A program made the translations under genes and the position numbers. Below the pieces are notes generated by a model that had not been told where the DNA came from, searched no databases, and saw only the letters and a program-made list of their open reading frames with translations. 64,000 nucleotides of DNA from Termitomyces sp. T153 (Eukaryota > Basidiomycota > Agaricomycetes > Agaricales > Lyophyllaceae): assembly GCA_018296165.2 (NCBI GenBank), contig JACKQL020000088.1, forward strand, positions 124,001 to 188,000, written 5' to 3'. Numbering within the stretch: the first letter of the stretch is position 1; each line of letters opens with the position of its first letter. Shown here piece after piece: positions 5,119 through 34,212 of the stretch.

Positions 5119-5120
5119 AC

Positions 5121-5314: not shown

Positions 5315-6430
5315 GTGCAATTAACACAATCATCCCTCACACACCAAATGACCAAACTCTCTACTCTCTATCAGACAACAGACCTAATCTCCCAATTGCT
5401 CCAGGCATTGCTCAAACATCTGAACCCTAACTCTGCCTCTTCTGTAGCTGTAGAACTAGCCCTGCCTACTGCTGCACCTGTCCCTGCAGCTTTAGTGACC
5501 CTATGGCCACAGATCCCATGCCCAGCATTATCCAATTCTGGTGGGGTGCAATTCCTACAGTCCTGCCTCACCTACATCCACTTCAGCAGGGATGCCTTTG
5601 ACTCCAATGTGCTGAAAATAGCCTAGGTACTGTCATACATGAAGACCAGACATGCCTCCACTTATACATTGCAAGTTTTCTACTGCCCCAAAGGTGTGGG
5701 AAGCTTCCCCAACTGGGCCACCTTTAAGAAGGACTTTTGCATGGAGTTCTTCCTGTTAGACTCTGCTAAGATGACAGCACTGACACTGCATGATAGAGAA
5801 CAGTACAAACAAGGGAAGCATATGTTGGATAAGTACATCAACTCATTCCAAGCTCTGGTTGAGCAGGCCACCTACTCTGACAGCCTCCAACTATGCCTCA
5901 CCTTCTGGGATGGCCTGCACCCCATGCTGGTGGAATGCATCAACAACATGGCAGAGGGTTGCTCCAGCAATGAAAAGATCACATCGTAGTACAAGGTGGC
6001 CTGAAACTAATAGCAACTCATGGAGATCTGGAGGGAGCTCTAATGCCACCCTTCTATGCTGTGCCCCATTCCAGTCAGCAATTTCTGCCTCCCTGCACCC
6101 ATTCACCCAATACTGGCCCTGGCTCCAGCCACCTCTGCAGCATGTCCCCTGCTGCCAGGGATCCCCATGGATGTAGATGCTGCCCAACAACTCTGCACTA
6201 CTCTGCTGCTGTGCCAGAGATGCAAGAAGCCTAGGCACTTTACATGGCACTGTCCCCTGGGCCTGAAGGTATGCTACCTTTTCATAGCGGAGCAGGAGGA
6301 ACTTCTCTTGCAGCTCCTGGCTGCAGAAGATGCTGCCAGAGCTCTGCCACTGGATGAGCCTACACTGGAGTTGGCCCCAGAGGAGGTCAGAGCATGCTCC
6401 TCACCTCTGGAGCTTAAGGGGGATTTTTAG
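5315..6430 (+). pseudogene. C1 gag (capsid and CCHC zinc knuckle), decayed
   Basis: This region encodes the structural Gag protein that would package the element RNA. The capsid-like part is best seen in the frame at 5639-5989, with a typical retrotransposon-gag stretch around FPNWATFKKDF and KQGKHMLDKYINSFQALVEQ. A nucleocapsid knuckle of form C-X2-C-X4-H-X4-C (CQRCKKPRHFTWHC) follows in the frame at 6056-6430. Several stops and frame changes separate the pieces, so no complete Gag can be made. The minus-strand copy in C2 has the same order. Confidence 0.75.
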
Positions 6431-6648
6431 TCAAGCAATGGATGAGGTGTATGCCTCCATTGCTGAGTGCTCAAAGGTTCTCTTGTCTGTCGATAGAAAA
6501 TGAAACTGCTTTTTCTGATGCCCTTCATTCTGAGACAGAAGAACCTTGAAGCCCTCCTCCAGATATACAAATACTAACTCCAGAGCCCCTGCTAAGCTCT
6601 CTGACACCTCTGAAGGTCTGTTGGCATGGCCCTGCCTAGGCATGTTAA

Positions 6649-7164
6649 ATGCCTCAACAGTATGTGATGGCCTCCACCCTGTCCACCCACTCCCTGCATC
6701 TTGATGTGGAGATTGAGACCACAGACACTCAGCAGACTTATAGAGTCACAGCTCTCCTAGACAGTAGAGCTACCAGACTTTTTCTGGATTTAGAGTTTGT
6801 CAAATGCCATGGCCTCACTACACAGCTCCTTCCCAAGCCCATTTCTGTCTACAACATTGACAGAACACCCAACAAAGCTGGTGCTATTAGCTCCATGGTT
6901 GACCTGGTTCTCTGCTATTGGAATCACATGGAGTGCACCATATTTGCCATCACTAGCTTGGGAAGGCAAGACATGATCCTTGGGCTCACATGCCTCTGAG
7001 AGCATAACTCCAAGGTTGATTGGACCAAAGAAGAGGTCATCATGCATGCCATGTTTGCTATTACTAGCTTGGGAAGGCAAGATATGATCCTTGGGTTCAC
7101 ATGGCTCTAAGAGCATAACTCCAAGATTGATTGGACCAAAGAAGAGGTCACCATGAGCAGGTGC
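6649..7164 (+). pseudogene. C1 aspartic protease domain, decayed
   Basis: This is a retropepsin-like domain that would process Gag-Pol. The active-site region reads ALLDSRATRLF, where the family and the C2 copy (ALLDSGTTGLF) have Asp-Ser-Gly; the Gly is now Arg. The second half includes the family-like stretch GRQDMILGL. A stop follows at the first TGCCTCTGA, and the end of the domain is duplicated in tandem (6943-7164). Inactive by stop and active-site change. Confidence 0.75.
6943..7164 (+). repeat. 111-bp in-frame tandem duplication in the C1 protease
   Basis: Copies 6943-7053 and 7054-7164 both contain ACTAGCTTGGGAAGGCAAGA and GATTGGACCAAAGAAGAGGT. The period of 111 bases is 37 codons. 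C2 has one copy, so the duplication arose in C1. Confidence 0.8.
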
Positions 7165-7399
7165 CCCCAGAAGTGCTCTGCCTGTGCCACAGAGGATAAG
7201 GTGGAGCATTGGACCCAAGTTTGGGAGCACACTGCCATCTGCACATGTCATGCCAGCCCTCTCCCCTTTGCCAATCTAGACCTCCTGGATCCCCTGCCTC
7301 TGGCATTCCCTCATAGGGAGGCCCTCTACAAGGACAATTGGAGCAATGGCAGAGCCTTAGAGGAGCAGGAAGGGGAGTTTGGCAGCATATACAAGCTAG

Positions 7400-8292
7400 A
7401 GCTCCTAGATGAAGCATTAGAGATGAAAGATCAAATCTATGCTACTACCATTCACCCCCCACCCTCCATCATGGAGATCCAGGCTAGTCAGACTATGTCC
7501 CAGAGGCTAGCCCAGGCCTTTGCTGCCAACACCATGCCCTGAAAGTTCCAGAATGTGGTGCCCCCCTATCTGCATGCATTTGAGGATGTGTTTTCCAAAG
7601 CCTCCTTCAACTCTCTTCTGGAGTGCAAGAAGTGGGACCATGCCATTGAACTGCTGCCAGACTCCACACCCTCTAGCTGCAGGGTCTACCTGCTTGTGCC
7701 CCAGGAGCAGGATGAGCTCAACATGTTTCTGCAGGAGAACTTGGACTCAGGTTGCATTCATCCATCCAAGTCTCCAATAGCTTCTCCAGTCTTCTTTATT
7801 GAAAAGAAGGACAGTTCCCTCTGACTGGTACAGGACTATTGGGTACTGAATGCCATGATGGTGAAGAACTGTTACCCTCTTCCACTCATCTCCAAGCTCA
7901 TCAACAACCTCTGGAGTGCACAATACTTCACTAAACTGGACATCTAGTGGGGTTACAACAATGTGCATATCCAGGAAGGAAATGAGTGGAAGGCCACCTT
8001 CCGGACCAACTGGGGATTGTTTGAGCCACTTGTTATATTTTTTGGACTCACTAACAGCCCCACCACCTTCTAGACTATGATGAACAACATCTTCCAGGAC
8101 CTCATAACAGAGGGCATAGTGTGTGTGTACCTCAATAACATCCTCATTTACACCAAGACACTGGAGGAACACCATTGGATTACTCACCTCATCCTGGAAT
8201 AACTCTGCCAGCACCAGCTCTACCTCAAGCCAGAGAAGTGCAAGTTTGAACAGACCCAGATTGAATACCTTGGCCTAATCATCTCACATTGA
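7400..8292 (+). pseudogene. C1 reverse transcriptase domain, decayed
   Basis: This is the polymerase part of Pol. The frame from 7555 carries the usual gypsy opening (AFEDVFSKASFNSL, DHAIELLPDSTP) and the stretch SPIASPVFFIEKKDS, followed by RT-type blocks interrupted by stops ([33 protein letters not shown]). The catalytic YxDD box reads Y-L-N-N (8128-8139): both catalytic Asp codons are now Asn. Copy C2 has the same YLNN change. Stops at about 7822, 7945 and 8071 add to the damage. Confidence 0.85.
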
Positions 8293-8301
8293 GCTGCAGA
8301 G

Positions 8302-10215
8302 ATGGACCTGGTGAAGGTCACAGGCATAGCAGAGTGGCCAAAGCCCAAGAACAAGAAGGAGGTGCAGGCATTCCTTGGTTTCACAAACTTCTACCAGAAA
8401 TTCATCCAGGACTTCTCATACTACACCTGCCCACTGTTTGACCTCATGGGAAAGGATGTTGCATGGAGCTGGGGACCTCAGGAGCAGATGGCTTTTGACA
8501 CTCTCAAGCATGCCATGACCTCTGGGCCCATCCTTCTATTCCTGGATGACAACTCCCCCTTCCATATAGAGGCCAACAGCTCTGACTTTGCCACTGGGGC
8601 TGTGCTTTCACAGCAATCTCCAGAGGATGGGAAGTGGCATCTGGTGGCCTTTTACTCCAAGAGCTTGAATGCAGTGGAGTGGAACTACAAGATCCATAAC
8701 AAGGAGATGCTGGCCATCATCTGGTTGTTTGAGGAGTGGTGGCACTTCCTAGAAGGCATGTGGCACAAGTTTGAGGTCTGGACTGACCACAAGAACCTTG
8801 AATACTTCTGGATGGCCAAGAAGCTCAACTGCCAACAGGCCCAGTGGTCCCTCTACCTTGCCAACTTTGACTTCTCCTTGCACCACAAGCCTGGCTGGAG
8901 CATGGGAAAGCCAGATGCCCTGTCCCAGAGAGTGGACCATAGCACTGGGGAAGGAGATAATATCAACATTGTGCTCCTCTGCTCCAAACTGTTCACAATC
9001 AGGGCCATGGAGGGTCTCACAGTCAACAGAGTGGAGGCAGACATTTTCCAGGATATATGGTGGAGCAATCAGAACAGTCAGCACAAGGAGCTTGTAGTGC
9101 AGGCTGCTTGGGCACTGAAGTTGGGGCATGCTACTAGTGTCAAGGTGGTCTGCACAGATGAATGGGCCCTCCAAGATGGGATCTTGACTTTCCAAGACTG
9201 CATCTACATTCCCAACATTCTGGAGCTCTGTCAGAGGATTGTGGAGCAATACCACAACTCCCACATTGCAGGGCACCCTAGGCAGTGAAAAACACTGGAG
9301 CTAGTATTGTGGAACTACTGGTGGCCCCAGATGTCCTGGTATATTGGATTCTACACTAGCACCTGTGATCTCTGCCTCCAGACCAAGCCTCAGTGCTGAC
9401 TCCCCTATGGACAGTTACACTCACTGCTGGTGCTCACGGAATGATGGAGCATAGCCTCCATAGACTTCATCGTTGAGCTCCCCAATGCTCACAGTTATGA
9501 TGCAATCATGGTGGTGGTAGATCTGTATGGCAAGAGAGTGCACTTTATTCTGACCTGCACTACCTGCTCCACCATGGGTGCTGCAAACCTGTACTAGAGA
9601 AATGTCTGGAAGCTCCACAGTCTCTCTGACACCTATGTCTTGGACTGGGGACCACAATTTAAGGCAGAGTTCACCTGGGAGCTCTACTGGCTGCTCAGAG
9701 TGAAGCTCCACACCATTACCACCTACCATCCACAGTCTGATGGCTAAATGGAATGCATAAACCAGAAGTTGGAGCAGTATCTCTGCCTATTTTGCAATGA
9801 GTGCCAGGATGACTGAGATGAACTCCTCCCCAACACTGAATTCCAGTACAACAACCATGTTCACACATCCACCCAATTCTCCGCATTCTTCCTTGACATA
9901 GGGTGGCACCTGTGCATGGGTTTTGAACCCCAAGCCTGACTCTCAGAGAATGAAGCAGTGAACAATTTTGTGGACTGGATAAGGAGGTCATAGAAGGAGG
10001 CCCAAGCTGCACTAGCAAAGGCAAAAGACAACATGGCATGGTACTACAACCATGGAAGGACCCCAGAATGCAGGTATCAGCCTGGGGATCAAGTCTACTT
10101 GGACGCCTCTGACATTACAACTACCTAATCCTCAAAAAAGCTATTACACCATCAGTTGGAACTGTTCATGGTGGAACAACAGGTAGGGCCCTTGGCCCAT
10201 TGACTCCAGCTCTCT
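8302..10215 (+). pseudogene. C1 RNase H and integrase, decayed
   Basis: An open frame of 328 codons (8302-9288) covers the RT connection and RNase H (AFLGFTNFYQKFIQDFSYYT, ATGAVLSQQSPEDGKWHLVA, NKEMLAIIWLFEEWWHFLEG, WTDHKNLEYF). It ends in the integrase zinc domain. The first RNase H acidic motif reads EANSSD instead of the usual D-A-S-type motif. The H-H part (YHNSHIAGH) and the C-C part (CDLCLQTK) of the integrase finger are separated by a stop. The catalytic core follows to about 9850 with Asp, Asp and Glu positions visible (SIDFIVELPN, DWGPQF, MECINQ), with stops near 9595, 9747 and 9815. Confidence 0.85.
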
Positions 10216-10518
10216 GTGAGGATGTGCCAGCTTCACCCAGTGTTCAATGTGGTCAAGCTAACCCCAGCCTCTAATGATCCTATCCCAGGGCAGCATCCAC
10301 CACCTCTGCCACCCCCTATGGTAGTCAATAACAACGAGGAGTATAAAGTAGAGGAAATCCTGAATAGCCATTTATTCCAGGAACAACTACAATACAAGGT
10401 GAAGTGGAAAGGCTATGGAATCAAGGATATTTCTTGGGAGTCACAGGAGAATGTACATGCCCCTGGACTTGTCAAGGAGTTCCACCAGAGACATCTAGAC
10501 ACCCTGCGAGCCATATGA
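10216..10518 (+). pseudogene. C1 integrase C-terminus with chromodomain
   Basis: The open stretch starts in the integrase C-terminal region (HPVFNVVKLTPA, a typical end of the gypsy integrase tail). It continues through a Pro-rich linker into a chromodomain: YKVEEILNSH, then QYKVKWKGYG and SWESQENV. Chromodomains of this kind direct integration to methylated histone H3 chromatin in chromoviruses. The domain itself is open here, but it is separated from the rest of Pol by upstream stops. The minus-strand C2 copy lies at about 32560-32740. Confidence 0.88.
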
Positions 10519-10594
10519 GGAATCTACTCTATCTTGCCAGCAGACCAGGCAATCAGAGACTTTTTCTACCCTGCACATCAAGATGCCACATGCT

Positions 10595-10608
10595 AGAGGG
10601 GAGGTGAT
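10595..10608 (+). promoter_or_regulatory. C1 polypurine tract
   Basis: The purine-rich run AGAGGGGAGGTGA directly abuts the right LTR start TGTTAGG. Such tracts prime plus-strand DNA synthesis. The LARD elements have a similar GGGGGGTGA run directly before TGTCA. Confidence 0.8.
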
Positions 10609-10976
10609 GTTAGGGGACTTCCATTTCCAACCTCTGTAACTGGTTCCAGCACCTCTGCAGCTCATTTGATGTCTCTGGGGCTCTTTCTAGATCTCTGGAG
10701 ATCTCCAGAGAACTGCAGAGTTCTCTGTCTTACCTTAGCAATCATTGCCCTAGGGTTAGGAGTAGCTCTGGTCACCTATACAGTAGTTCCCATGCCTCTG
10801 CCACCTGCTGATGCACTGTGCTGAGCAGCAGGGATTCTTAGACTTGTTCTCTTTGGATTCCCCTCTGTTAGATAATTAGTTACTGATTGTATTGTCATCT
10901 ACTCTGCTAATATACTTTGGATTCCCCTCTGCTAGCTGCATAACTCTGATCCACCACTCCAGAGGTTGCCCTTATG
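10609..10976 (+). repeat. C1 right LTR
   Basis: It matches the left LTR over its length with many transitions. It starts TGTTAGGGGAC (left copy TGTCAGGAGAC) and ends CCCTTATG (left copy CCCTTACA). The terminal dinucleotide is therefore damaged, and the right edge is placed by alignment and by the decayed target duplication. Confidence 0.85.
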
Positions 10977-12928: not shown

Positions 12929-14105
12929 TGTCATGACCCGTTCCCTGAAGCCCCGAACACCACCCGACAAACCCTCACTCCCCTGGAACCCCCCGATGCT
13001 TCGTTGAACTTCTCCAGCACTCTACGCCTACTTCAGCTAACTCCAGCACCTTCTCAGTTAACTCCAATGGCCCCCTGGCCAACTCCAACATCTTCCCCGC
13101 AGCCGCTGGCGCTTCCCCTGGACTTCCTGAGCCCCTGAGACCACTCCCCTGCCATGCCTGACCCCATTACATGTCATCAACTTGACACCCTGGCTTCCCC
13201 AACTTATCCTGGAGTATCATGACAGCCTCAGAATGGACTGCATTGCAATTGATCCTATCAACATATCAATGCAGCCTACTCTCTGATCGTAACCGACACC
13301 TGTCGACTCTGTCGAGCTCCACCAAGCCCCGCCACTACAGCCAATGTCCCCAGAGCTCTTCAGTAGTTAGTATATAAGATATAGAGTAGCTCTTCGTACT
13401 CTAGGCTTGATATTGCTTAACATTACCTATGGTCTAATTGGTTCCTTCTTGTGTTTCGTGTCTCATGTTTCATTTTTCTTATCTCAGTCTCCCAGTCTTA
13501 TCTCAGTCTCCTGGTCTTATCTCAGTCTCCCAGTCTTATCTCAGTCTCCCAATCTTGTCTTGTCTCCATTTTGTTATCATTCTCGTTATCGTTTTGTATC
13601 TCCATGCGAATCCATTCTTGTTCCATCTCGACTCCATTTCATTTTGTCCAACGCTGTCTCAGTGACTCCATCCGGCTGTTGTGCCCAAGTCTTCCTCAAC
13701 CTTAACGACTATACAAACTCTGCGATTATGATTATGAACCCCAACACTCCTTTGCCAGATCCGAACCTTGCTCTTGCTCAGTCCCAGACTCCATCAACCC
13801 CAATTGATCCTCCATCAAACCCTGGCTCTGCTCCCATTGATCGCATAGCCTCCTACCCCTTCATGTCTGCAAATCTCCCATACGGTCTTCTGCCTGAACC
13901 CCGCCAAGCCCATTCTGTTTCCTTGCAATCCGACTTCTTCAGACCTCTCCGGACCTGTTCGGATCACATCCCACTGACTATCCACATAAGCAATCAGTGT
14001 CCAGAATGCTTTCAAGTGTCCAGTTGCCAAGTGCAAGGGGATCATGCCCGCCTAGTAAGGACTTGCTCAGTGCAGCTAAGCCCCTAGAGTCAGCAGAACC
14101 TGACA
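12929..14105 (+). repeat. E2 left LTR
   Basis: It starts TGTCATGACCC and ends AACCTGACA. The TATA box TATATAAG is at 13371-13378, and the inferred RNA start AGGCTTGATATT is 32 bases downstream at 13403. Repeats of a 19-base CAGTCTCCCAGTCTTATCT unit follow the start (about 13480-13560). A long open frame inside the LTR has no supporting domain and mostly reads these repeats. Confidence 0.9.
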
Positions 14106-14118
14106 TAATATCAAGACT
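14106..14118 (+). promoter_or_regulatory. E2 primer site complementary to its RNA start
   Basis: TAATATCAAGACT directly follows the left LTR. Its complement matches the consensus RNA start AGTCTTGATATT found in E2's right LTR and in E3. The left LTR itself now has one mismatch (AGGCTTGATATT, 13403-13414). No tRNA-type primer site is seen. Confidence 0.75.
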
Positions 14119-16481
14119 CTACCTTACTCTGTCTGTGATGCCCGCATTATCTCCACACACACAGTCAATAACTCCGATGTCTATGGTCTACCCATGCCTG
14201 AAAACCCTTATGATTCATACAGCCCTGCCCAATTTGCTGAGGCACATTGAGTTGCAGATCTGACACCAAATGTCCCCTCCACTCTGGTTACATCTATACA
14301 ACAGCTCCCCCTACAGACACCCTCCCCAACCCACACCCAACCTCAAACCCCTTACACAGACCATCAAATCATCTCCCACTCCACCCTTACCCTCTCCGCC
14401 AACTCTGTTCCCTCACACAAAGTTGACTCCAATGTCACCCAAAGAACAGCATTCTAAAACCTGGCAACCATCTGACCAAATGAGCAACAATGTCTCTGAC
14501 ACTGCGCCAACCCTCCAACAAACAATAACGCCAACCCGCCATGAAACAGTCACTCATTGCACAAAGGATCACCAGCCATGATGAGACCACTGAGAACATG
14601 CTTCCCCGAAGCCCACCTATGGATCCACCAACCCACTAGCAACCCTGCAGACTGATGAATGTGACTAATCACCAACAACATTACCAAACCCTACTATCAA
14701 CCACCTAACCCTCACCACAATCACCCCCAAGGAACTATGCCCTCTGACAATTAGCCCCGAAATCGCCAAAATCAAACTCAACCCAACAACCCCAACAATA
14801 GAGCAAGAACTCCAGACCTAGGCTATGCTCCAACCCCAGAACCTGCTTCCAGTCAGTTGGGAACCTTGGTTGACTCAGCTGTCACCTCCACCCAACAAAT
14901 GAAGGGGCCCCAACACCTCCAACCTGACCCCAACAACCCCGGAACAAGACCAAGACATCCCCGAGCTTTTAGATGGTCAGGAAAAGGATGGCTATGCACC
15001 TCCACCCTGCTGCCTAAAGCACAGCCCCCAAAGTTAACAAGGAGAACCACAGCACCCCAACTCTCGACAAGGGACAACTCTGGACTGCGCCGCTATTTCA
15101 ACACCTTCTCCCACACAATCCAGAATCCCCGACATTGAGGACCCTTGATGCCAACCCTCCCTGCATGCCACTCCCAAACCTAAACTCCACCACCAGACTC
15201 CGCCACCTCCTACAAAGGAACCCCCAGCATAGGAGCCACCCCAAACTAGCTATAGGAAAAAGGACCCTATACAAAGTAGTTCCCCTAAGTACTCTAAATT
15301 TGCTGACATGTTCATATAAGGAAGGGAGAAGCCCCACCAGCATCCAGAGAATGTTGATCAGCCGCTCAAGCAACCTGATGACCCAAAGGGCACACACTCC
15401 AATATCCTTAAAAGGCCCCCCCCCACTTGGCTCAATGACTTAAACAACTCCACGCCAGCCCAAAACTGCCCAACCCACCCCTCTGACCCACTCCGAACCC
15501 CTTGACGCAGCTCCAGACTCTGGCAACATGACTCCAGGGCCTCCACTCTGACTCCGACATTTGATCAAGGGGACCTATGGCGCCAACCCAACAACGATGC
15601 CCTGGTAGCCCCAACTCCGCAACATAAATCACCCCCAGCTCCAAATCCCACCCCTATGCTGGAATATGTCCATCAAACAGGGACCACATTATTAGAGTAC
15701 CCAGAAGCAAGCCACATGTGAAGTATCCTCTTTGGAGTACCCAGAAGCAGGCCACATGCGAAGTACCCTCTCCGGAGTACCCTAAGATTGCTGATGCCCT
15801 CCCCAAAAAGATGCTGCACACCCTGACAATAATTTGACACTGAAGGAAGTGCTGCCCACCCACAACCAGCAAAGGACATCACATGCCATGACCCTGCCCT
15901 CAGAGTCCCAGCCCACCACTGTCCCACTCCCCTTGCCTAACACAGATCGCTCCCAATGAGAAAACGAAACAAAACTCTGGGATCCTCCAAGTAATTCCTC
16001 CCAAAAGTTTCACACACCCCCGGAGGACCCAACCACAACTGATGGAGATCAACCCTGGAGCCCAAGAAATGATGAAGTGGCCCCTCCAACTCTGCCCCAA
16101 ACCCTTGAGGGACAAGAGACAACCCCCAAGGAAGCATACCAAAACCTACCCTGCCCCCCCCATTTGTAGTAACCCCCAGACCACTCCAGAACACAAGTGG
16201 GAGAATGCCCTAACTCCATCAACAGACTAAACCCACCCCCCAACCCCCATACCAACCCCAGACCCCTGGCCCTTGTGCTGGGAATGACAGACCAACAAAA
16301 TGTGTTTTGGGCCCATTTCCCTGCTCTGCAAACCCCAAAGTCTTTCCGCTGGGACAATCTGTTGCCAACCAGACCCCACACTACTCCTACCAAAAGAAGC
16401 ACCCCAAGCCCTAGAAAACAAAAGCAATGTCACATAGGTGGCCTAGGACCTGCAGACCCCAACTCTGGACCAGGAGAACTT
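14119..16481 (+). other. E2 non-coding leader
   Basis: This internal sequence has no domain-bearing frame on either strand. It aligns piecewise with the reverse complement of E3 19150-21367 and with E1 1-4313. The five bases AACTT at 16477-16481 are the left copy of the E3 target duplication. Confidence 0.65.
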
Positions 16482-17646
16482 TGTCAGGGTCCGCTGACCT
16501 CGGGGGCGCAGCTGCACTGGGCGAGTCCTTACTAGGCGGGCGTGATTCCCCTGCATTGGTGACCGGACACTCAAAGACATTCCGGGTCCTGGTGGTTTGC
16601 ACGGGTAATTGGGGAGATGTGATCCAGACAGATCCGGGAAGGTCCGGAGAAGTCGGATTGTGGGGAAATGAGACGGTCTTGGCGGGGTTCAGGCAGAAGG
16701 CCGTACGGGAGATTTGCGGAAGCAAGGGAGTAGGTGGCTGTGGGATCAATGGGGGCGGAGCCGGGGTTTGATGGGAGATCATTTGGAGTTGATGGAGTCC
16801 GGGACCGAGCGAAGAGTGAGGTTCGGACCTGGTAAGGGGTGTCGGGGTTCGTAATTATAATCGCGGAGTTCGTGAGGTTGTTAGGGTTGATGAAGAATTG
16901 GGCACAAGGGTCAGACGACGTCACCGAGATGGCGTTGGACGAGACATTATGGAACAAGAGTAGATTCGAGTGGAGGTACGAAACGATAACGAGAACGATA
17001 ACGAAAAGGGGACGAGACAAGACCGGGAGACTGAGATAAGACCGGGAGACTGAGATAAGATCGGGAGACTGAGATAAGACCGGGAAACTGAGAGTAAGGA
17101 GAAAGAGATACGAAAACGAACACGAAACACAAAGAGGAAACAATCAGACCATAGGTAACGTTAAGCAATATCAAGACTGGAGTACGAAGAGCTACTCGAT
17201 GACTTATATACTGACTACCGGAGGACTTCGGGGTACGTCGGCTGTGGCGGCGGGGCTTGGCGGGGCTTGACAGAGTGGCCGGGTGTCGGTTGTGATCGCA
17301 GGTCGTGCCGCGCTGATACGTTGATGGGATCGCGGGTTGTTCCGAGGTTGTCGTGATATTCCGGAATAGGTCGGAGGAAGCAGGGTGTCGAGTTGATGAT
17401 GGGTGGGCGAAGATCAGGAATAGCGGGGGTGGTTCTCGGGGTTTGGGAAGCCCAGGGTAAGTGTCAGTGGCTGCGGGGCAGGCATCGAAGTTGGCCAGGG
17501 GGCCGTCGGAGTTAGCCGGGGATGTGTCGGAGTTAGCCGAAGTAGGCGTGGGCATGGGCGGAAGTTCGGCGGAGCGTTGGGGGTCCTTTTGGGGGTTCGG
17601 GGGTTTGATGGACGATGTGCGGGGCTTTGGGGAACGGGTCGTGACA
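16482..17646 (-). repeat. E3 downstream LTR (3' LTR in element orientation)
   Basis: The plus strand reads TGTCAGGGTCC...GGGTCGTGACA, 1165 bp, nearly identical to 21381-22545. It lies directly before the start of the antisense gene, so in that orientation it could act as, or contain, that gene's promoter; this is inference. Confidence 0.93.
17020..17095 (-). repeat. 19-bp tandem repeat in the E3 LTR
   Basis: Four units of AGACCGGGAGACTGAGATA, the last degenerate, lie head to tail just downstream of the inferred RNA start. The other E3 LTR has the same array. The E4/E5 subfamily keeps only one or two units. Confidence 0.85.
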
Positions 17647-17660
17647 TCACCCCCCTTTCA
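17647..17660 (-). promoter_or_regulatory. E3 polypurine tract
   Basis: On the minus strand TGAAAGGGGGGTGA directly abuts the LTR start TGTCACG. This is the expected plus-strand primer, and its GGTGA/TGTCA junction resembles that of chromovirus C1. Confidence 0.8.
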
Positions 17661-17856
17661 GCGTCGAGACCCTTCGAGACGCGGGGCAGGGCGGGGATCG
17701 GCGGGGCATGGGAGTCGAAGCCGAGCAATATTGATCAATCCGCAGCGAGTGATAGCGGCGTGGGAGGCGAAGTCGAAGCGCGGCCGCCGTTTCGTCAGGG
17801 TCCTCCTCACTCAATTTAAAGCTTTGGGCGTGCCCCGGGGTTTCCCAAATTTCGTC

Positions 17857-18987
17857 ATGTCTTCTCCCAGCGTTCCAGTGGTTTCTCCCGCCGATTTAGA
17901 CGAGGTGGTGGTGTATGACAGTGGGGGTGAGGAGTTCGAGCGTCGGCGCCGGGGTAGCGTTAGGGACCGGAGTCGTAAGTGTTGTCGAATTTTCCTTTCG
18001 GGATGGTTAACGGGGTTCCGGTAGAGTCGTCCGTAGTAGTAGTGGTGGACTTTCCGGGGGTTCCGAAGCGGACCAAGTTTCGTCCCGCGGTGCCAAAGGG
18101 GAAGGGGGCGTCTTCGGTGGTGGTTCGGGGAAAGCGTCGAGCTTCCCCACCCTCGGGGGCGGGACCCAGCAAGAGGCCGCGTGGGCGCGAGTTGTCGGCG
18201 GGGCCACCCGAGTCTTCCCTCTTTTCCCCTGTCCCTGGCGTTCCCTCGGAGCGGTCGTCGAGTCCCTCCGCGCCGATTCCTTCAATCACGGAGGTCTTCC
18301 TTCGTAAGCAGGTGGAGGCCCTGACGACGTCGTTGGCAGTACGGGAGGGGGAGCTCCGCCGGGCGAGGGAGGATCGTGACGCGGCGCGGACGGAGAAGGA
18401 AGCGATGGAGCGGGAGAGGAATACTTCGGTGCGCGTGGCGACGGAGCGGGCGCTAGAGGTGCGGGGTCTGCGGGAGCGTCTGGCGCAGGTGGAGGGGCAA
18501 CCCGCGGGGGAAGCGGAGGGGCGGGGACGAGTTCCGGAGGGGGATGCGTTGTGGGCGGAGCTGGAGGCGGCGAGGCGGAGGGAGGATTGGTTGGCCAACG
18601 AGGCCGCCTCGGGTCGCGCGGGGATTCTTCGTGAGTTGTCTCCCGTTCCTTCGTTCGTTATTGACGGTTCATTTTCGGAGTTTAGGCTGGGTGCGGGAGC
18701 ATCGGGTCCTCTTGGACGGTGCCTCCGCGGCGTTCGCGTCGATTCAGGACGGGTTGACGCAGGGGTCCGCGGTCCAGCCTCCGGAGTTGCAGCAGGGAAT
18801 GGCGCGGTTGGAGAGGTTGCTGGCGGGGCATCGGCGACGCAATGCGGTGGCCCCGGGGTCGTGGTGGGAGGTGGCGGCCGACGCGGGGGAGGCATTGCCG
18901 GGGTTGGCGGAGATCCTAGCGGTGGTGCGGGCCCAGATGGAGGTCGACCTAGGGGTTGGGTTTCCGGGAGGTTCGGGGAGGGAGTGA
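17857..18987 (+). CDS. Antisense accessory protein of E3 (NLS plus coiled coil), intact
   Basis: This is an unknown protein encoded opposite to LTR transcription. Exons 17857-17974, 18025-18630 and 18686-18987 are joined by introns of 50 and 55 bp (GTAAGT...GTAG and GTGAGT...TTAG) and give 341 residues ending in GGSGRE. The N-terminus has an acidic stretch (DSGGEEFE) next to a run of Arg. A bipartite basic patch lies near GKRRASPPSGAGPSKRPRGR, followed by SITEVFLRKQVEAL. A long Arg/Glu-rich coiled coil spans roughly residues 115-200, and the C-terminal domain is conserved (WVREHRVLLDG, ELQQGMARLERLLAGH). The same exon order occurs in E1, E2 and E4. The Cys module of E1 and E4 is absent. A TTTAAA box lies about 40 bases before the ATG. 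It may be a nuclear, dimeric regulatory protein; this is unproven. Confidence 0.72.
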
Positions 18988-21367
18988 GGTGGGTGTGGGC
19001 CTCGTTTCTTGTCGCTCTTGGACTTGCTGCCTTCCCGCCTATTGTATATATGATTTTTTTGTACGCGAACATGTCACTTCTTGGTCCCTGGGCGTGTGAA
19101 GTGAGATTTTTAGTTTTGTCTAGTGAGTTCAGAGGCGGGGGTTACGCCCGCTAGTGCCGTCTGCGCTGGCTAGTCCCGGGGTTTGTCGGGACGGGGCGGG
19201 GCATCGCAGGAGGGCTCCCGGGGTCTGTCGGGGTTGGTGGGAGTTCTCCGGTGGGGTCCCCGGCATTTCGGGCGGTGTCGTTGAGTTCGCTTCTTGGAAA
19301 TTTTCGACTGGGGGTGTAGGGGACGTGCGCCGTTTTGGTAGTAGAGGGTGGCCTTTGAATTTTGTACGGCGCCCAACGGGTTCGGGGCTTTGGTTGTCTT
19401 GGCGGTGTGGTGGGCGGGGGGTAATGGGGGTCTTCCCATGGTCTAGCCCTTACGTCGGTATTGGTGGTGAAGGCGGGCGGGCCCTTTTTTATTGGCGGGG
19501 TTGGGTGAGGCGGGGTTCGTCTTCGCAGTATAGTCGGTCCGGGTCGGGGTTGTGTTTTGGAGTGCTGCGTCTGTGGGCGGGCCTGCTTCGGGTGGCGCTT
19601 TGGTGTGCTCCGGAGTGTCGATGACCGAGGGGGTAGGATGCGGGGTGATCAGTCCCAACCAGTTCCTTCGGGTCCGGGGCCCAATTTGGGGTTCCGGGTC
19701 ATCTACGTGATATTGCTCTCCTGACCAAAGGTAAGCCCGCGGCGGACAAAGGGGGTCTTACGTGTTTCTGATACTTCCTCGAGTTCGGAGGTTCGGGGGT
19801 CGGTGGTTCCTTCATCGGGAAGAAGTGGGTGGTCCCGGAGTCGACTCAAGGGTCACTTGGTGGGGGTTTGTTGGTTGTTCATGGTTGTTGGGGCGGCGGA
19901 AGGTCGGCCGCGGGAGGGCACTGGAGTGGGGCTCCCCGGGAGATGCGGCAGGGTCGGATTTACTCTTCGTTCGTGTTCCGGAGCGGTCCGGAGATTGTGC
20001 AAGTGCAGGGGTGATAGTGGGGGGAGGCACTGCCAGCTTGTCTGGAGGCCCCGGTGATGTGGTCCCTGTTTGGGCGGACATATTCCGGTGTAGGGGCGGG
20101 GTTCGGAGGGGGTGGTGATTTCTGTTGCGGAGTTGGGGCTACCAGGGCATCGTTGTCAAGCCGGCGCTGTGAGTCCTCTTGGTCAGATGTCGGGGTCGGA
20201 GCGGAGGCCCTGGAGTCGTGTCGCCAGGGTCCGGAGCTGGATTGATGGGTTAGGAGGGGTCTGGGTGGGACTGTTTCGGGCTGGCGCGGGGTCGTTTTGG
20301 GTCGTCGAGCCAGATGGGGGAGGTCTTTTGAGGATATGGGAGCGCGTGCCCTTGGGGTTGTCGGGTCGCTTAAATGGCCGATCGTTGTTTTCTGGATGAT
20401 GGTGGGGCTTCTCCCTCCCTTATATGAACATGTCAGCGAATTTAGAGCACTTAGGGAACTACTTCGTATAGGGTCCTTTTTCCCTATAGTTAGTTCGGGG
20501 TGGCCCCTATGCTGGGGATTCCTTCGTGGGAGGTGGCGTAGTCTGGTGGCGGAGTGTAAGCTCGGGGATGTTTTGGTCCTGTTCCGGGGTTGTCAGGGTC
20601 GGGTCGGGGAAGTCGGGGCCCCTTCATTTGTTGGGCGGAGGTGACGGCCGATCGATCGAGGTCCGGAAGCAGGTCACGGGGTTGGAGCATAGCCTAGGTC
20701 TGAGGTTCTTGTCCTGTGGTGGATTCGAGCTTGATTTTGATGGTTTCGGGGTTAGTTGTCGGAGGGTTTATTTCCTTGGAGGGGGTCGATAATAGGGTTT
20801 GGTGATGTTGTTGGTGATTAGTCGCGTTCGTCGGTCTGCGGGGTTGCTGGGGGGCCGGTGGATCCACAGGCGGGCTTCGGGGAAGCGCGTTCTCAGTGGT
20901 TTCTTTGTAGCTGGCGATCCTCGCGCTGTGGGTGACTGTTCCATGGCAGGTTGGCATTATTGTGGGTCGGAGGGCTGGCGCGGTGCCGGAGACCTTGTTA
21001 CTCATTCGATCGGATGGTCGCCAGGCTTTAGGATGTTATTCTTTGGGTGATGTCGGGGTCGACTTTGTGCGAGAGAGCGGAGTTGGCGGGGAGTGTAGGG
21101 GTGGGGTGGAAGATGAGTTGACGGTTTGCGCGAGGGGTTGGGAGTTGGGTGTGAGTTGGGGAAGGTGTCCGTGGGGGGAGCCGTTGTATGAAAGTAACTG
21201 GAGCGGAGGGGACGTTTGGTGTCGGATCCACGACTCAATGTGCCTCGGCAAATTGGGCAGGGCCGTATGAATCATAAGGGTTCCCCGGCGCGGGTAGACC
21301 ATAGACATCGGAGTTATTTGATTGTGTGTGCGGAGATAATGCGGGCATCACGGACGGGGTAAGGTCG
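18988..21367 (-). other. E3 non-coding leader
   Basis: About 2.4 kb lie between the 3' end of the antisense gene and the primer site. Open frames on both strands (for example 19154-19624 plus and 20694-21005 minus) reflect high GC content. They have no domain and no matching frame in E1, E2 or E4. A run of T after a TATATA stretch at about 19045-19060 could serve as the 3' end signal of the antisense gene. Confidence 0.6.
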
Positions 21368-21380
21368 AGTCTTGATATTA
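21368..21380 (-). promoter_or_regulatory. E3 self-priming primer site
   Basis: On the minus strand TAATATCAAGACT follows the upstream LTR directly. Twelve bases, AATATCAAGACT, are the perfect complement of the inferred RNA start AGTCTTGATATT (22066-22077, minus). This matches the Tf1-type self-priming layout, and no tRNA complement is present. Confidence 0.8.
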
Positions 21381-22545
21381 TGTCAGGGTCCGCTGACCTC
21401 GGGGGCGCAGCTGCACTGGGCGAGTCCTTACTAGGCGGGCGTGATTCCCCTGCATTGGTGACCGGACACTCAAAGACATTCTGGGTCCTGGTGGTTTGCA
21501 CGGGTAATTGGGGAGATGTGATCCAGACAGATCCGGGAAGGTCCGGAGAAGTCGGATTGTGGGGAAATGAGACGGTCTTGGCGGGGTTCAGGCAGAAGGC
21601 CGTACGGGAGATTTGCGGAAGCAAGGGAGTAGGTGGCTGTGTGATCAATGGGGGCGGAGCCGGGGTTTGATGGGAGATCATTTGGAGTTGATGGAGTCCG
21701 GGACCGAGCGAAGAGTGAGGTTCGGACCTGGTAAGGGGTGTCGGGGTTCGTAATTATAATCGCGGAGTTCGTGAGGTCGTTAGGGTTGATGAAGAATTGG
21801 GCACAAGGGTCAGACGACGTCACCGAGACGGCGTTGGACGAGACATTATGGAACAAGAGTAGATTCGAGTGGAGGTACGAAACGATAACGAGAACGATAA
21901 CGAAAGGGGGACGAGACAAGACCGGGAGACTGAGATAAGACCGGGAGACTGAGATAAGATCGGGAGACTGAGATAAGACCGGGAAACTGAGAGTAAGGAG
22001 AAAAAGACACGAAAACGAACACGAAACACAAAAAGGAAGCAATCAGACCATAGGTAACGTTAAGCAATATCAAGACTGGAGTACGAAGAGCTACTCGATG
22101 ACTTATATACTGACTACCGGAGGACTTCGGGGTACGTCGGCTGTGGCGGCGGGGCTTGGCGGGGCTTGACGGAGTGGGCGGGTGTCGGTTGTGATCGCAG
22201 GTCGTGCCGCGCTGATACGTTGATGGGATCGCGGGTTGTTCCGAGGTTGTCGTGATATTCCGGCATAGGTCGGAGGAAGCAGGGTGTCGAGTTGATGATG
22301 GGTGGGCGAAGATCAGGAATAGCGGGGGTGGTTCTCGGGGTTTGGGAAGCCCAGGGTAAGTGTCAGTGGCTGCGGGGCAGGCATCGAAGTTGGCCAGGGG
22401 GCCGTCGGAGTTAGCCGGGGATGTGTCGGAGTTAGCCGAAGTAGGCGTGGGCATGGGCGGAAGTTCGGCGGAGCGTTGGGGGTCCTTTTGGGGGTTCGGG
22501 GGTTTGATGGACGATGTGCGGGGCTTTGGGGAACGGGTCGTGACA
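21381..22545 (-). repeat. E3 upstream LTR (5' LTR in element orientation)
   Basis: This 1165-bp LTR would start genomic RNA synthesis toward lower coordinates. Differences from the other E3 LTR include CTGGG for CCGGG near 21481 and GACGG for GATGG near 21829; I count about twelve in all. Confidence 0.93.
22066..22109 (-). promoter_or_regulatory. E3 LTR core promoter
   Basis: TATATAA lies on the minus strand at 22109-22103. The base 32 nt downstream (22077) begins AGTCTTGATATT, the segment complementary to the primer site. The 32-base spacing is the same in E2 and E5, which supports this start position. Confidence 0.75.
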
Positions 22546-22550
22546 AACTT

Positions 22551-23474
22551 ATGGGGACTGGTCACTCTGAATCCTGCCCCCTTGTCACCAGCACTCCAAA
22601 GCACACCAAACACCCCCAAGCACACCTGCCCATGAATATGACCCCCTGGAGTGTAACGTCAACCTGAACCAATATTTCGGAACGCAACAAAGCCCTGACC
22701 CCACATGCCTTTCGTCAAATACAATACTCTGGAGCTCAACAGAACCCCACCATATGCAGCCCCACCAAAACATAGATCTCAGGGAAACCCAACTCAGGAC
22801 GACTGGAGAACCAGCTCCCACCAACTTATTACAAGGACCCCCTCTCCAGACCAACTATGCCATGAGGATGAACCATGCTCCACCAACCCCACCAATGAAG
22901 AGGGCCCTGCCACCTTTGCCACCAGCATTGGCATAAGGGCCAGATCATGGGAAGACCTCCATCCCTCCTGCCAACCACACTGATAAGAAAACCAAAAGCC
23001 CCAAACCCTGCTGGACACACGAAAAAGATTCGAAGGTCTGCCCTCCTGTACCAACATGGCACACATCCCCACTGCAGACTGAAGAAAATCCCTACACTCC
23101 TGGTCAGAAATTCCGAGAATCAAACCCAATAATACTAAAATGCTATGGAACTCCACAGGAGAACTCCCTCCACCCCTGCCGAACCTTGGAAGCCCTCCCT
23201 GCAATGCTCCGCCCTGTCCCAACAAACCCTGGGACTAGCCAGCACAGATGGCACTATCAGGCATAACTTCTGCCTCTGAATTCATGAGGGATTCAACTCT
23301 CACTCACACCTCTGCATGTTTCACTTACTTTGCCCTCATACAAACTAAAACCTCACTTCACATGCCCAGGGACCAAGAAAAGAACATGTTTGCATATAAA
23401 AATTACATATATATACAAGGCAAGGGAGGCAGCAAGTCTGAAAGCAACAAGAAACGGGGCCCACACCCACCCCC
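22551..23474 (+). other. E2 leader, right part
   Basis: E2 internal sequence resumes after the E3 target duplication. No gene is recognised; frames here are interrupted and composition-driven. It contains the C-rich segment that also precedes the antisense gene in E1 and E4 (about 3990-4200 and 29390-29570). Confidence 0.6.
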
Positions 23475-24643
23475 TCATTCCCTCCCCAGATCCCCTGGCA
23501 ACCCTATCCCCAGATCGACTTCCATCTGGGCCTGCACCACTGCCAAGACCTCCACCAACCCCAGCGACACCTCCCCTGCATCAACTGCCACCTCCCACCA
23601 TGACCCCAGGGCCACCGCATTGCATCGCCAATGCCCCGCCAGCAACCTCTCCAATTGCGCCATCCCTGCTGCAACTCCAGGAGCTGAACTGCAGACCCCT
23701 GCATCAACCCATCCTGAATCAACGCGAACGCCGTGGAGGCACCATCCAGGAGGACCCAATGCTCCCACACCCAGCCTAACCCCAGAAAATGAACCATCAG
23801 TAACAAATGGAGGAGCAGAAGACCACTCACAAAGGACCCCCATGCACCCTGAAGCAGTCTCATTGGCCAACCAATCCTCCCTCTGCCTCACCGCTTCCAG
23901 CTCTGCCCACAGTGCATCCCCACCCTTCTGCTTTCCCCACGGGCTGCCCCTCCATCTGCATCAGATGCTCCCACAAGCCCTGCACCTCTAATGCTTGCTC
24001 CATCACCATGTGCACCAATGTGTTCCTTTCCTGCTCCATCGCCTCTTTCTCTGTCTGTGCCACGTCATGGTCCTCCCTTGCCCATCAGAGCTCACCCTCC
24101 CATGCTGCCAATGACATCATCAAAGCCTCCACCTGCTTGCGAAGGAAGACCTCCATGATCAAAGAGGTAGGTGTGAAAGGACTTGATGACTGTTCCATGG
24201 GGTAGGAGAAAAGAGGAGAGACTTCAGAGGCCCTGCCAATAGCTCATGCCCACGTGGCCTCTTGCTGGGTCCTGCCCCCGAGGGCGGGGAGGCTTGGCAC
24301 TTCCCACAAATCATTGCCAAGGACGCCCCCTTTCCCCAACCACCCTGCAAAAACCCCGCCTTCCCCACAGACTGCCCCATGCTCGCCTCCTTCGGCAATG
24401 CAGGATGAAACTTGGTCTGCTTTGGGACCCCCAGGAAATCCACCACCACCACCATGGACAACTCTATAAAAACTCCGTCAGTTATCCCGAGAAGACAAGT
24501 CAACACCACTTATGACTCTGGTCCCTGGCACTAGCACAGCACCGATGCTCAAACTCCTCCCCCCCACTGTCATACACCACCACCTCATCCAAATCAGAAG
24601 GCAATGGAGCGGGGGAGATTACTGGAATGCTGGGGGAGGACAT
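23475..24643 (-). pseudogene. Antisense accessory gene of E2, decayed
   Basis: The copy starts at 24643 with MSSPSIPVISPAPLPSDLDE and shares VVYDSGGEEFE with E3. It continues through VVVVDFLGVPKQTKFHPALP, GAGPSKRPRGHEL and the coiled coil (MAQTEKEAMEQERNTLVHMV) to the C-terminal GDLGRE. Like E3 it lacks the Cys module. The intron 1 donor is ATAAGT (E3: GTAAGT), a CpG-type loss, while the intron 2 donor GTGAGT remains. Frameshifts and stops break the frame. Confidence 0.75.
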
Positions 24644-24856
24644 GATGAAATTTGGGAGATCCTGGGGTACGTCCAAGGCTTTTAATTGATTGAAGAGAAC
24701 TCTGATGAAGTGGCAGCTGCACTTCAACTTTGTATCCCATGCCACTATCACTTGCTGCAGACTGATCAATATTGCTTGGCTTTGACTCCCATGCCCCTGC
24801 CAATCCCCATCCTGCTCCCCGTGTCTTGAAGGGTCTTGATGCTGAAGGGGGGGTGA

Positions 24857-26034
24857 TGTCATGACCCATTCCCTGAAGCCCCGAACACTGCCCGACAAAC
24901 CCCTGCTCCCCCGGAACCCCCCAACGCTTTGTCAAACTTCCCCAGCACTCTGCACCTACTCCAGCTAACTCTGGCACCTTCTCAGTTAACTCTGATGGCC
25001 CCCTGGCCAACTCCGACATCTTTCCCGCAGCTGCTGGCACTTTCCCTGGACTTCCTGAGCCCCTGGAACCACTCCCCTGCCATGCCTGACCCCATTACAT
25101 GTCATCAACTCAACACCCTGGCTTCCCCAACTTATCCTAGAGTATCACGACAGCCTTGGAATGGACCACGTCACAATTGATCCCATCAACATATCAACGT
25201 GGCCCACCCTCTGATTGTAACTGACACCCATTGACTCTGTTGAGCTCCGCCAAGCCCCGCCACCACAGCCAATGTCCCCGGAGCTCTTCAGTAGTCAGTA
25301 TATAAGACATAGAGTAGCTCTTTGTACTCTAGTCTTGATATTGCTTAACATTACCTATGGTCTGATTTGTTCCTTCTTGTGTTTTGTGTCTCATGTTTCA
25401 TTTTTCTTATCTCAGTCTCCCAGTCTTATCTCAGTCTCCTGGTCTTATCTCAGTCTCCCAGTCTTATCTCAGTCTCCCAGTCTTGTCTTGTCTCCATTTT
25501 GTTATCATTCTTGTTATTGTTTTGTATCTCCATGCAAATCCATTCTTGTTCCATCTCGACTCCATTTCATTTTGTCCAATGCTGTCTCAGTGACTCCATC
25601 TAGCTGTTGTGCCCAAGTCTTCCTCAACCTTAACGACCATACAAACTCTGTGATTACAATTACAAACCCCGACACTCCTTTGCCAGATCCAAACCTTGCT
25701 CTCACTCAGTCCTGGACTCCATCAACCCCAATTGATCCTCCATCAAACCCCAGCTCTGCTCCCATTGATTGCATAGCCTCTTACCCCTTTGTGTCCACAA
25801 ATCTCCCATACAGTCTTCTGCCTGAACCCCGCCAAGCCTGTCCCATTTCCTCGCAATCCGACTTCTCTGGACCTCTCCGGACCTGTTCAGATCACATCCC
25901 ACTAACTATCCGCACAAGCAATCAGTGTTCAGAATGCTTTTTGAGTGTCCAGTTGCCAAGTGCAAGGGGATCATGCCCACTTAGTAAGGACTCGCCCAGT
26001 GCAGCTGAGCCCCCAGGGTCAGTGGAACCTGACA
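24857..26034 (+). repeat. E2 right LTR
   Basis: It starts TGTCATGACCC directly after the polypurine tract TGAAGGGGGGGTGA (24843-24856) and ends AACCTGACA. It is followed by the target duplication GTAGC (26035-26039). It keeps the consensus RNA start AGTCTTGATATT. Confidence 0.92.
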
Positions 26035-29576: not shown

Positions 29577-31173
29577 TCACTCTCCTCCCAGAACCCCTGC
29601 CATCCCTACCCCCAAATCAATCTCCATCTGGGCCTACACCACTGCCAAGACTTCTGCCAGCTCTGGCAAAGCCTCCCCCATGTCTGCCGCCACTTCCCAC
29701 CACAACTCTGGAGCCACTGCATTACACCATCAATGCCCCGCCAGCAACCTCCCCATCCTCACCATCTCCTGCTGCAGCTCTGGAGGCTGACCCATGGGCA
29801 TCTGCACCAACCCATCTTGGATCAAGGTAAATGCTGTGGAGGCACCATCCAAAAGAACCCGGTGCTCCTGCACCCAACCTGGCCCCAACATGATCCATTT
29901 AGTAACAGGTGGAGAAGTGGAAATGACACTTATGAAGGATCCCCACATGCCCTGAAGCAGCCTCATTGGCCAGCCAATCCTTCCTCTGCCTTGCTACCTC
30001 CAACTCTACTCATAGCAAACCACCCTCTGGTGCCATTTCCTACTCCTCCTTCTCCTCTGTGGGCTGCACCTCCTGCTGCGTCAGATGCATCCACAAGCCC
30101 CATACCTCCAGCACTTGCTCCAGCACCACCTGCACTAAGGTGTTCCATGCCCGCTCCAATGCCTCCTTCTCTGCCCGCACTACATCTTGATCCTCCCTCA
30201 CTCACCAAAGCTCCCCCTCCTGCACTGTCAATGCTGCTGTTAGCATCTCCACCTGCTTGTGAAGGAAGACCTCTGTGATCAAAGATGGGGGCTTTGGAGA
30301 ACTTGATGCCCATCCCAAGGCAGTGTCTGGGGTAGAAGAGTGAACATGAAACCCTGGAAGACCTGCCATCAGCTCGTACCCCCATGGCCTCTTGCTGGGC
30401 CCTGCCCCCAATGACAGGGAAGCTCTCCACTTACCACAGTCTGCTGCCGAGGATGCCCCCTCCCTCCGCCCACTCCATGGAGGCCCCACCTGCTCCACAG
30501 ACTCTGTGCCCACCTCCCCCAACACCCAGGTCTTCTGCACCTTGCCTAGCTGACTCTGCACCCAGTCCTCATCCCACCTTTGCTCCGTGGCAATGCACGC
30601 CACTTGCCACTCTAACGAGATCGAGCACTTCTCATGGCTCGCGTGACATGGAAGGCAAATGGAAGTGTCATGCCGTGAGCCCATGGAGGGTGCATCAAAG
30701 ATGCAGGCCTTGCCCCACCGCACACAGAGAACACACTGAGAACAATGGATCAGCACATGTGACAAAGGGGAACTCAAAGACTCACTGGAGCCTCATTTGG
30801 GCACCATTCCATCATTGGGGGGCCCCAAGCCCACGCCAACACCCTTGCAAACTCCTCCACCATCACCTCTACCTAAGGGATTTGCTGCAGTAGAGGGACC
30901 CCTTCCGCATTCCCTGCTGCCAATTGGGGCACTGCAGGACAAAATTCAGCCCACCTAAGGCCCCCCGGAGAACCCACCACTACTGCGGACAATTCTGCAG
31001 AACTCCGTCAGCCACTCTGAAGAAACAGGTCAATGCTGCTCACAACTCCAGTATATCGTACCAACTCAGCACTGATGCTTGAACTCCTCCCCCTCACTGT
31101 CATACACAATCACCACATCTGTGTCTGAAATCAACAGAGTGGGGGAAGTGGCTGAATAACTGGGAGAGGACAT
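29577..31173 (-). pseudogene. Antisense accessory gene of E4 with Zn2Cys6-like module
   Basis: The copy starts at ATG 31173-31171 (MSSPSYSATSP) with IVYDSEGEEF. The frame at 30202-30777 carries a Cys module spaced C-X2-C-X6-C-X15-C-X2-C-X6-C (first half CVLCVRWGKAC, second half CLPCHASHEKC). Next come GAGPSKRPWGYEL, the conserved SLITEVFLHKQVEMLTAAL and the coiled coil; the C-terminal domain follows near 29600-29900. Fungal Zn(II)2Cys6 factors use CX2CX6C, a linker of 5-12, then CX2CX6-8C. The longer linker here makes the match suggestive only. Introns are at the E3 positions, but the intron 2 donor is ATAAGT. Stops make it a pseudogene. Confidence 0.72.
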
Positions 31174-33490: not shown

Positions 33491-33491
33491 C

Positions 33492-34172: not shown

Positions 34173-34212
34173 CTGCTACCTTCACTGGGTCTATCTCCAC
34201 AGCTCCATGCAA

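Follow-up and report, generated by a model that had tools for sequence, protein, structure and literature searches.

An Intron-Bearing Antisense Gene Under Purifying Selection in a Gag-Pol-Less LTR Element of Termitomyces

Results

Structure and Polarity of the E3 Element

The window (the whole 64,000-nt stretch of DNA analyzed here, from the termite-farmed mushroom Termitomyces sp. T153) contains a 6.06-kb LTR element, E3 (16482-22545), that is flanked on both sides by the TSD AACTT (16477-16481 and 22546-22550) and sits within E2, an older, CpG-depleted element of the same family. The two E3 LTRs (3' LTR at 16482-17646 and 5' LTR at 21381-22545, both on the minus strand) are 1165 bp each, have TG...CA ends and are 98.97% identical, with 12 differences, four of them CpG transitions. 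A polypurine tract (PPT; sense AAAGGGGGGTGA, 17647-17658, minus) abuts the 3' LTR, and a 12-nt primer site (PBS) of the self-priming type (sense AATATCAAGACT, 21368-21379, minus) adjoins the 5' LTR. On the minus strand, a TATATA starts at 22109 and, counted from start to start, lies 32 nt upstream of AGTCTTGATATT (22077-22066), which complements the PBS exactly and is the 5' end of the element RNA as predicted from TATA spacing. A TATA box followed by an RNA 5' end complementary to the PBS is the layout of self-priming Tf1/sushi elements. Since the TATATA and the AGTCTTGATATT/PBS complementarity identify the minus strand as sense independently of any gene, and the PPT agrees with them, the leftward orientation that a sequence-only reading had assigned to the LTRs, PBS and PPT was borne out.

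That reading had also described E3 as lacking gag-pol, and this held: gag and pol proteins of the autonomous relative described below gave no match to the E3 internal region (E 0.01), and a Pfam scan of ten E3 frames gave none either. No gag-pol was found in the non-coding internal region (19001-21367), which is also present in four other LARD copies (L031-L034), and the window as a whole gave no Rfam or tRNA match. E3 thus has all the LARD features (LTRs, TSD, PBS and PPT), with no gag-pol found.

The Antisense Gene and Its Decayed Copies in the Window

The gene of E3 lies on the plus strand, antisense to the element, and its three exons are separated by two phase 1 introns: exon 1 (17857-17974), intron 1 (17975-18024; 50 nt, GTAAGT...TAG), exon 2 (18025-18630), intron 2 (18631-18685; 55 nt, GTGAGT...TAG) and exon 3 (18686-18987), which ends in a TGA stop. 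Exon 2 carries a bipartite NLS-like patch and a predicted coiled coil (the helix is taken from the model of a homologue, P0003), and exon 3 a conserved C-terminal domain that is predicted to be helical. The joined exons make a clean frame of 1026 nt (341 aa plus stop) across two GT-AG introns, just as first proposed, and six annotated homologues (P0003, P0004, P0006, P0007, P0008 and P0010) are exactly 341 aa long and continuous across both junctions. Between the 3' LTR and the ATG lies a leader (17647-17856, plus) that presumably holds the promoter and 5'UTR of the gene; the first 161 nt, which begin with the PPT and are 83% identical in the autonomous relative, form the longest DNA match between the E3 interior and that element. 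Upstream of the ATG the frame continues without a stop into the 3' LTR (17461-18024, plus), and the annotated homologues P0001, P0102 and P0150 begin ahead of this ATG.

Decayed copies of the gene, all on the minus strand, are found in E2 (23475-24643) and E4 (29577-31120), both with the exon order kept, exon 2 of the E4 copy being broken by ~460 nt of other sequence. The initial claim that the copies in E1, E2 and E4 share exon order and intron positions stood in part: E2 retains both introns (intron 1 of 50 nt, intron 2 of 55 nt) and E4 retains intron 2 (55 nt), but intron 1 was not located in the E4 copy and E1 is only partly recognizable, as an exon-2 remnant (11293-11046) and an exon-3 remnant (4625-4353) with another gypsy element between them.

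That gypsy element is of a different kind and is present in the window as two inverted copies (4749-10973 and 32648-40090), one of which is the copy between the E1 remnants; it apparently has short LTRs of its own (~370 bp, 88-90% alike), and its pol is ~38% identical to that of the autonomous relative. The CpG observed/expected ratio is 0.03 at 1-4700, 0.30 at 13000-16484 and 0.26 at 22547-24900 (old copies), 0.97 at 45000-60000 and 1.04-1.16 in E3, and the CpG loss in the old elements suggests methylation-driven decay. Elsewhere in the window, open frames at 50179-51855 (minus) resemble a GH7 cellobiohydrolase, which would fit a lignocellulose-degrading fungus.

Conservation of the Gene Among Genomic Copies

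A DNA search of the 72.4-Mb genome with the E3 gene, in which 40 of 552 candidates were scored, returned copies that were all 99-100% identical. Copies were then compared within a young, E3-type subfamily (A; 30 loci, E3 included) and between it and a second, older subfamily (B; 19 copies used). Excluded before the selection counts were L034 (same place as L035), L031, L032 and L053 (incomplete start) and L055-L066 (partial matches). In subfamily A, 26 of the 30 loci, E3 among them, are intact for frame, stop and all splice dinucleotides, the defects being a frameshift in L006, one stop in L019, two stops in L030 and a lost donor in L020. Full intactness is found in a single older copy (L048, 1/19). 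All four splice dinucleotides are intact in 29/30 young and 9/19 older copies; in the older subfamily both acceptors are kept in 19/19 and G->A is seen at 12 of 38 donors, every splice-site loss there being a donor G->A change, as CpG decay would do. In the older subfamily exon 2 has 54 extra nt (57 in one copy), both divisible by three.

Fixed differences between the subfamilies were measured against an expectation matched for base and CpG context. Only 17 of 62 are nonsynonymous vs. 42.6 expected, a ratio of 0.17 (about six-fold depletion) that none of 5000 simulations equaled or undercut; the ratio is 0.17 at non-CpG sites as well (13/50 nonsynonymous), and 0.18 and 0.17 at thresholds of 0.6 and 0.95. 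A single copy, L033, compared with E3 gives 0.15 at non-CpG sites (10/42 nonsynonymous) and 0.36 at all sites (34/79), within the ranges for five single copies against E3 (0.15-0.19 non-CpG and 0.29-0.36 at all sites). CpG-context changes in these five have ratios of 1.09, 0.83, 1.48, 0.54 and 0.72, near neutral for four of them (0.72-1.48), with L044 as the exception (0.54, equaled or undercut in 32 of 5000 simulations). Among singletons of the young subfamily, the ratio is 0.75 (24/41 nonsynonymous) and not significant, so that change after insertion appears close to neutral; changes shared within subfamily A (9/19, ratio 0.44, p 0.049) give a signal that is weak and not frame-specific, since the +1 frame scores 0.42. 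The Ka/Ks-type comparison between copies that had been put forward as a check on the gene therefore revealed clear purifying selection (0.17 between subfamilies, 0.15 for L033 at non-CpG sites), and these tests exclude chance as its origin.

The differences also follow the proposed splicing. Between the subfamilies they fall mostly in phase 0 in exon 1 (8/10), phase 2 in exon 2 (27/41) and phase 0 in exon 3 (8/11), and this shift (0 to 2 to 0) tracks the wobble positions predicted by removal of introns of 50 and 55 nt; the same phases lead in L033 vs. E3 (6/11, 26/52 and 9/16). Differences were present at 9 of 50 sites in intron 1 and 3 of 55 in intron 2, and the other two plus frames have ratios of 2.03 and 4.58. 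As judged from these comparisons among copies, the gene is real, is under purifying selection and bears the mark of splicing.

Retention of the Introns

A gene that passes through retrotransposition normally loses its introns. Among E3-like copies (those that a search at <=3 mismatches covers, the most decayed ones lying outside it), the unspliced donor of intron 2 was found at 168 places and the spliced junctions of introns 1 and 2 at none (0 and 0), which indicates that copies arise from RNA in which these introns are unremoved. The argument that spliceosomal introns can persist in a retroelement only when antisense to the genomic RNA still stands, and the retained introns fit a gene with the predicted antisense orientation.

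The Predicted Protein

Every protein match listed for the family is named as Termitomyces (the listings gave 120 of 188, 116 of 116 and 120 of 121), and no homologue outside Termitomyces was found among them; each of these searches scored ~8000 candidates, needs shared 5-residue words and may miss distant relatives. Neither Pfam nor PDB gave a match to the E3 protein, and the family profile had no match in PDB. The NLS-like patch attributed to the protein is present (KRRAS...PSKRPR, bipartite), and this signal is nearly identical in E3 (KRRASPPSGAGPSKRPR) and in the protein of the autonomous relative (KRRASPSPEAGPSKRAR), the two proteins being ~46% identical over residues 66-328; a nuclear-signal regex fits 30 of 52 family proteins. 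The coiled coil is upheld insofar as a long helix is predicted, mostly with confidence, at residues 127-196 in the model of P0003, a homologue of 341 aa that is 86% identical and not E3 itself. The C-terminal helices of that model have middling confidence and its N-terminal third mostly very low confidence, and both AlphaFold models are poor overall (mean pLDDT 54 and 52).

The protein of the autonomous relative also carries a Zn2Cys6-like motif, C-x2-C-x6-C-x15-C-x2-C-x6-C, that appeared in 0 of 2000 shuffles and is complete in 18 of 36 family alignment rows and 58 of 283 homologues. The E3 protein has no cysteines at all, so the cluster is absent from it. Pfam Zn_clus is matched weakly, by 15 of 36 members at E <=1 (best 0.0052; two scores of 11.1 and 11.3 bits where the cut-off is 21), and binding of zinc or DNA by the cluster is a prediction.

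An Autonomous Relative With a Homologous Antisense Gene

The antisense gene had been taken as cargo specific to the LARD. It is not: the same genome contains an autonomous chromodomain gypsy family, with the same self-priming site and PPT, in which a homologous gene occupies the interval from pol to the 3' LTR. In the locus that we read, at the start of contig C112, the order is contig start (inside the 3' LTR), PPT as in E3, antisense gene (1199 to ~2891), pol, protease, gag, PBS as in E3 and 5' LTR, the last being 99% identical to the 3' LTR. The element has gag, protease, RT, RNase H, integrase, SH3_Tf2-1 and chromodomain, and its antisense gene encodes 514 aa across three GT-AG introns of 51, 49 and 51 nt (introns read in this one autonomous locus only, the second and third being those that best fitted P0147, a Termitomyces homologue of 514 aa). 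The first and last of these correspond to the two E3 introns in place and phase, the E3 intron 2 being the counterpart of the third, and the middle intron lies in a domain absent from E3.

Among 84 scored relatives of P0147 (from 2955 candidates), 70 lie 1.5-4.5 kb past (3' to) an RT among the 150 best of 2302 candidates, and on the strand opposite to it, at a median spacing of 2448 bp (2300-2600 bp in 52 of the 70), and an antisense homologue is found at 36 of the 40 top RT loci. Just two of the 74 pairs within 12 kb are same-strand, and 80 of 150 RTs and 14 of 84 genes are without a listed partner. The DNA of the C112 antisense gene is 97-100% identical in 27 of 40 scored copies.

In a control with the LARD genes, none of 40 subfamily A and none of 40 subfamily B copies had a listed RT at the autonomous spacing, with four pairs each within 12 kb. 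The distance from gene to PBS is 2.97-3.61 kb in 33/40 A copies and 3.84-4.49 kb in 8/40 B copies (those with the junction among 100 listed of 291). L031-L034, read at length, have no gag-pol match inside the E3-type region; gag and pol matches in L032 (75-77% to C112) occupy 5336-8370 and start at the outer LTR edge, which suggests that this LARD inserted in the gag of a relative of its autonomous partner.

At the DNA level E3 and C112 share the leader match given above, 95 nt of the gene, 72 nt past the gene and 27 nt at the PBS end, and no gag-pol; their LTRs have similar ends and no DNA-level alignment over most of their length. It is likely that the LARD kept the antisense gene after losing gag-pol. 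The autonomous relative carrying a homologous antisense gene is new here.

Two further observations concern the wider repeat population. At 11 sites the PBS-LTR junction is identical up to TGTCA and the next base differs (A in 8/11), possibly marking another LTR family that uses the same self-primer. Contigs C10, C32, C39, C52, C85, C98, C109, C112, C241, C251, C256, C289 and C306 appear to start in or beside E3-type or C112-type LTRs (C112 alone was read); because these repeats seem to interrupt the assembly, our copy counts are lower bounds.

Discussion

Antisense ORFs are known in plant gypsy elements, as the sequence-only reading had noted: the open-access accounts describe a class (aORF-3R: Grande gene23, RIRE2, Retand TRP28 and PvRetro13) that is antisense to gag-pol beside the 3' LTR and is retained in most copies, with some of the products nuclear or predicted to bind DNA (PMC7264820, PMC11963269). 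The Termitomyces gene resembles these in position, being antisense past RT in its family (70/84 genes, 36/40 top RT loci) and, in E3, next to the PPT and 3' LTR in an element without pol. It differs from them in having a fungal host, and from Retand in that the TRP28 Pfam match is absent from the E3 protein and its family and in having introns (two in E3, three in C112), a word that does not occur in the main text of the Retand paper (PMC11963269). As far as the same paper describes them, defective Retand clusters each lack one or two of four domains and none lacks all, whereas E3 is without gag-pol altogether (PMC11963269). In Botrytis cinerea, Boty is described as a fungal LTR element with an antisense ORF near the 3' LTR, and in this it resembles E3 (PMC7264820).

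A second parallel is offered by retroviruses: HBZ of HTLV-1 and the APH genes of HTLV-2, -3 and -4 are, in the published account, antisense genes with nuclear products, transcribed from the 3' LTR end, with splicing in HTLV-1, -3 and -4, and HBZ has a leucine zipper and represses sense transcription (PMC3185765). The likeness is one of predicted layout; the E3 protein has no bZIP Pfam match, no sequence relation to HBZ is shown, and E3 is a gypsy-type derivative without gag-pol. With Tf1/sushi elements C112 shares a PBS complementary to the predicted RNA 5' end and the SH3_Tf2-1 and Chromo Pfam domains (E3 the PBS part only), and the C112/E3 lineage differs from them by its extra antisense, intron-bearing gene. 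E3 is likewise similar to LARDs such as those of Laccaria bicolor (LTRs, PBS and PPT, no gag-pol), but it carries a selected gene, and the main text of the Laccaria paper uses the word "antisense" 0 times (PMC3411680).

Antisense genes near the 3' LTR are therefore already known from plants, one fungal element and retroviruses, as are spliced antisense non-coding RNAs from a fungus, to the extent that the open-access sources cover them (PMC7264820, PMC11963269, PMC3185765, PMC10648671). The suggestion that a spliced antisense gene as the sole cargo of a LARD is little described agrees with the open-access literature searched, in which we found no multi-intron antisense protein gene in a fungal LTR/chromodomain element or as the sole gene of gag-pol-less derivatives, which is not proof of absence (PMC7264820, PMC11963269, PMC3185765, PMC10648671, PMC3411680, PMC2864245). 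By its predicted structure and pattern of change, the E3 gene is an accessory antisense gene of the kind seen in Grande, Retand or HTLV (HBZ), but one that is multi-intron and maintained without gag-pol.

Our reading, which we hold to be probable with real room for doubt, is that E3 is a gag-pol-less LTR element with a selected antisense gene, predicted to be spliced, that likely encodes a nuclear coiled-coil protein regulating the element. Selection could instead have acted only during residence in autonomous elements, the gag-pol-less copies merely inheriting the gene. This we judge unlikely: the gene does have an autonomous home in the C112 family, and an extinct or older autonomous family with an E3-type gene is conceivable (the RTs scored were the best 150 of 2302), but L031-L034 have an E3-type internal region free of gag-pol matches (those of L032 begin only at its outer LTR edge), the non-CpG ratios are as low as 0.15 (L033 vs. 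E3) and 0.17 (A vs. B), and a listed RT at autonomous spacing accompanies 0/40 A and 0/40 B copies.

It is distinctly unlikely, in our estimate, that the gene is host cargo, i.e., that the element picked up a cellular gene, which then persisted because it benefits the host or by hitch-hiking. Its introns and its NLS-like and zinc-cluster-like features resemble those of a fungal nuclear gene, and gene capture by retroelements is on record in the accessible account (PMC7264820), but 70/84 scored relatives occupy a fixed place beside RT and every match listed carries a Termitomyces name (120 of 188, 116 of 116 and 120 of 121). We likewise give little credence to a role for the antisense RNA in place of the protein, in which it would pair with genomic RNA and feed or block RNA silencing, the reading frame being incidental. 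Spliced antisense non-coding RNAs from retroelements are documented for the fungus Blumeria hordei (PMC10648671), and dsRNA is among the possible roles discussed by Vicient and Casacuberta (PMC7264820), in so far as these sources are openly available; selection here, however, tracks codons (0.15-0.19 at non-CpG sites, with a phase shift at both introns), and the length of exon 2 changes between subfamilies by multiples of three (54 nt, 57 in one copy). An RNA role could exist alongside that of the protein.

The remaining alternative, that the frame arose by chance from GC-rich composition or that the true gene is the sense-strand 393-aa frame (17960-19141), is refuted by the frame tests: the scarcity of stop triplets leaves both strands open here, and the mirror frame of the spliced sequence also scores low (0.23 vs. 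0.17) because it has its wobble position in common with the spliced frame, but the continuous sense frame shares the wobble in exon 2 only and fails in exon 3, where 11/11 A|B differences alter it and 8/11 are silent in the spliced antisense frame (for L033, 14/16 vs. 6/16), and the other two plus frames stand at 2.03 and 4.58.

On the reading of E3 as a LARD with a selected antisense gene, the element would be a deletion derivative of the autonomous lineage and would be copied in trans by autonomous gag-pol proteins, a trans-mobilization to which the shared PBS, PPT and LTR ends point. The introns would survive since they are reversed on the genomic RNA and could not be spliced from it. The antisense mRNA, predicted to start near the 3' LTR, would be spliced and make the 341-aa protein, which may enter the nucleus via its bipartite signal and dimerize via its coiled coil. 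The autonomous version, with its added Zn2Cys6-like cluster, would bind DNA, and the cysteine-less E3 version would be a partner or competitor without the cluster, tuning transcription or silencing of the LTR copies as HBZ does in HTLV-1. The accessory gene would control expression of its own element from within the nucleus. That selection has kept it without gag-pol suggests a benefit to the carrying copy or family and not merely supply in trans. Going further, the LARD might keep a zinc-cluster-less version of a Gal4-like regulator (antisense in the autonomous relative) as a cis-favoring dimer partner or decoy that helps it to be replicated or to evade silencing; it might then be a parasite within the genome that controls itself through a spliced antisense gene. 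This is speculative and, as it stands, unlikely.

The E3 gene would be a fungal counterpart to HBZ and to the antisense genes of plants. Because it appears to be selected even where gag-pol is absent, it may let the function of such accessory genes be probed cleanly, that is, whether they help their carrier, control its rivals or protect the host.
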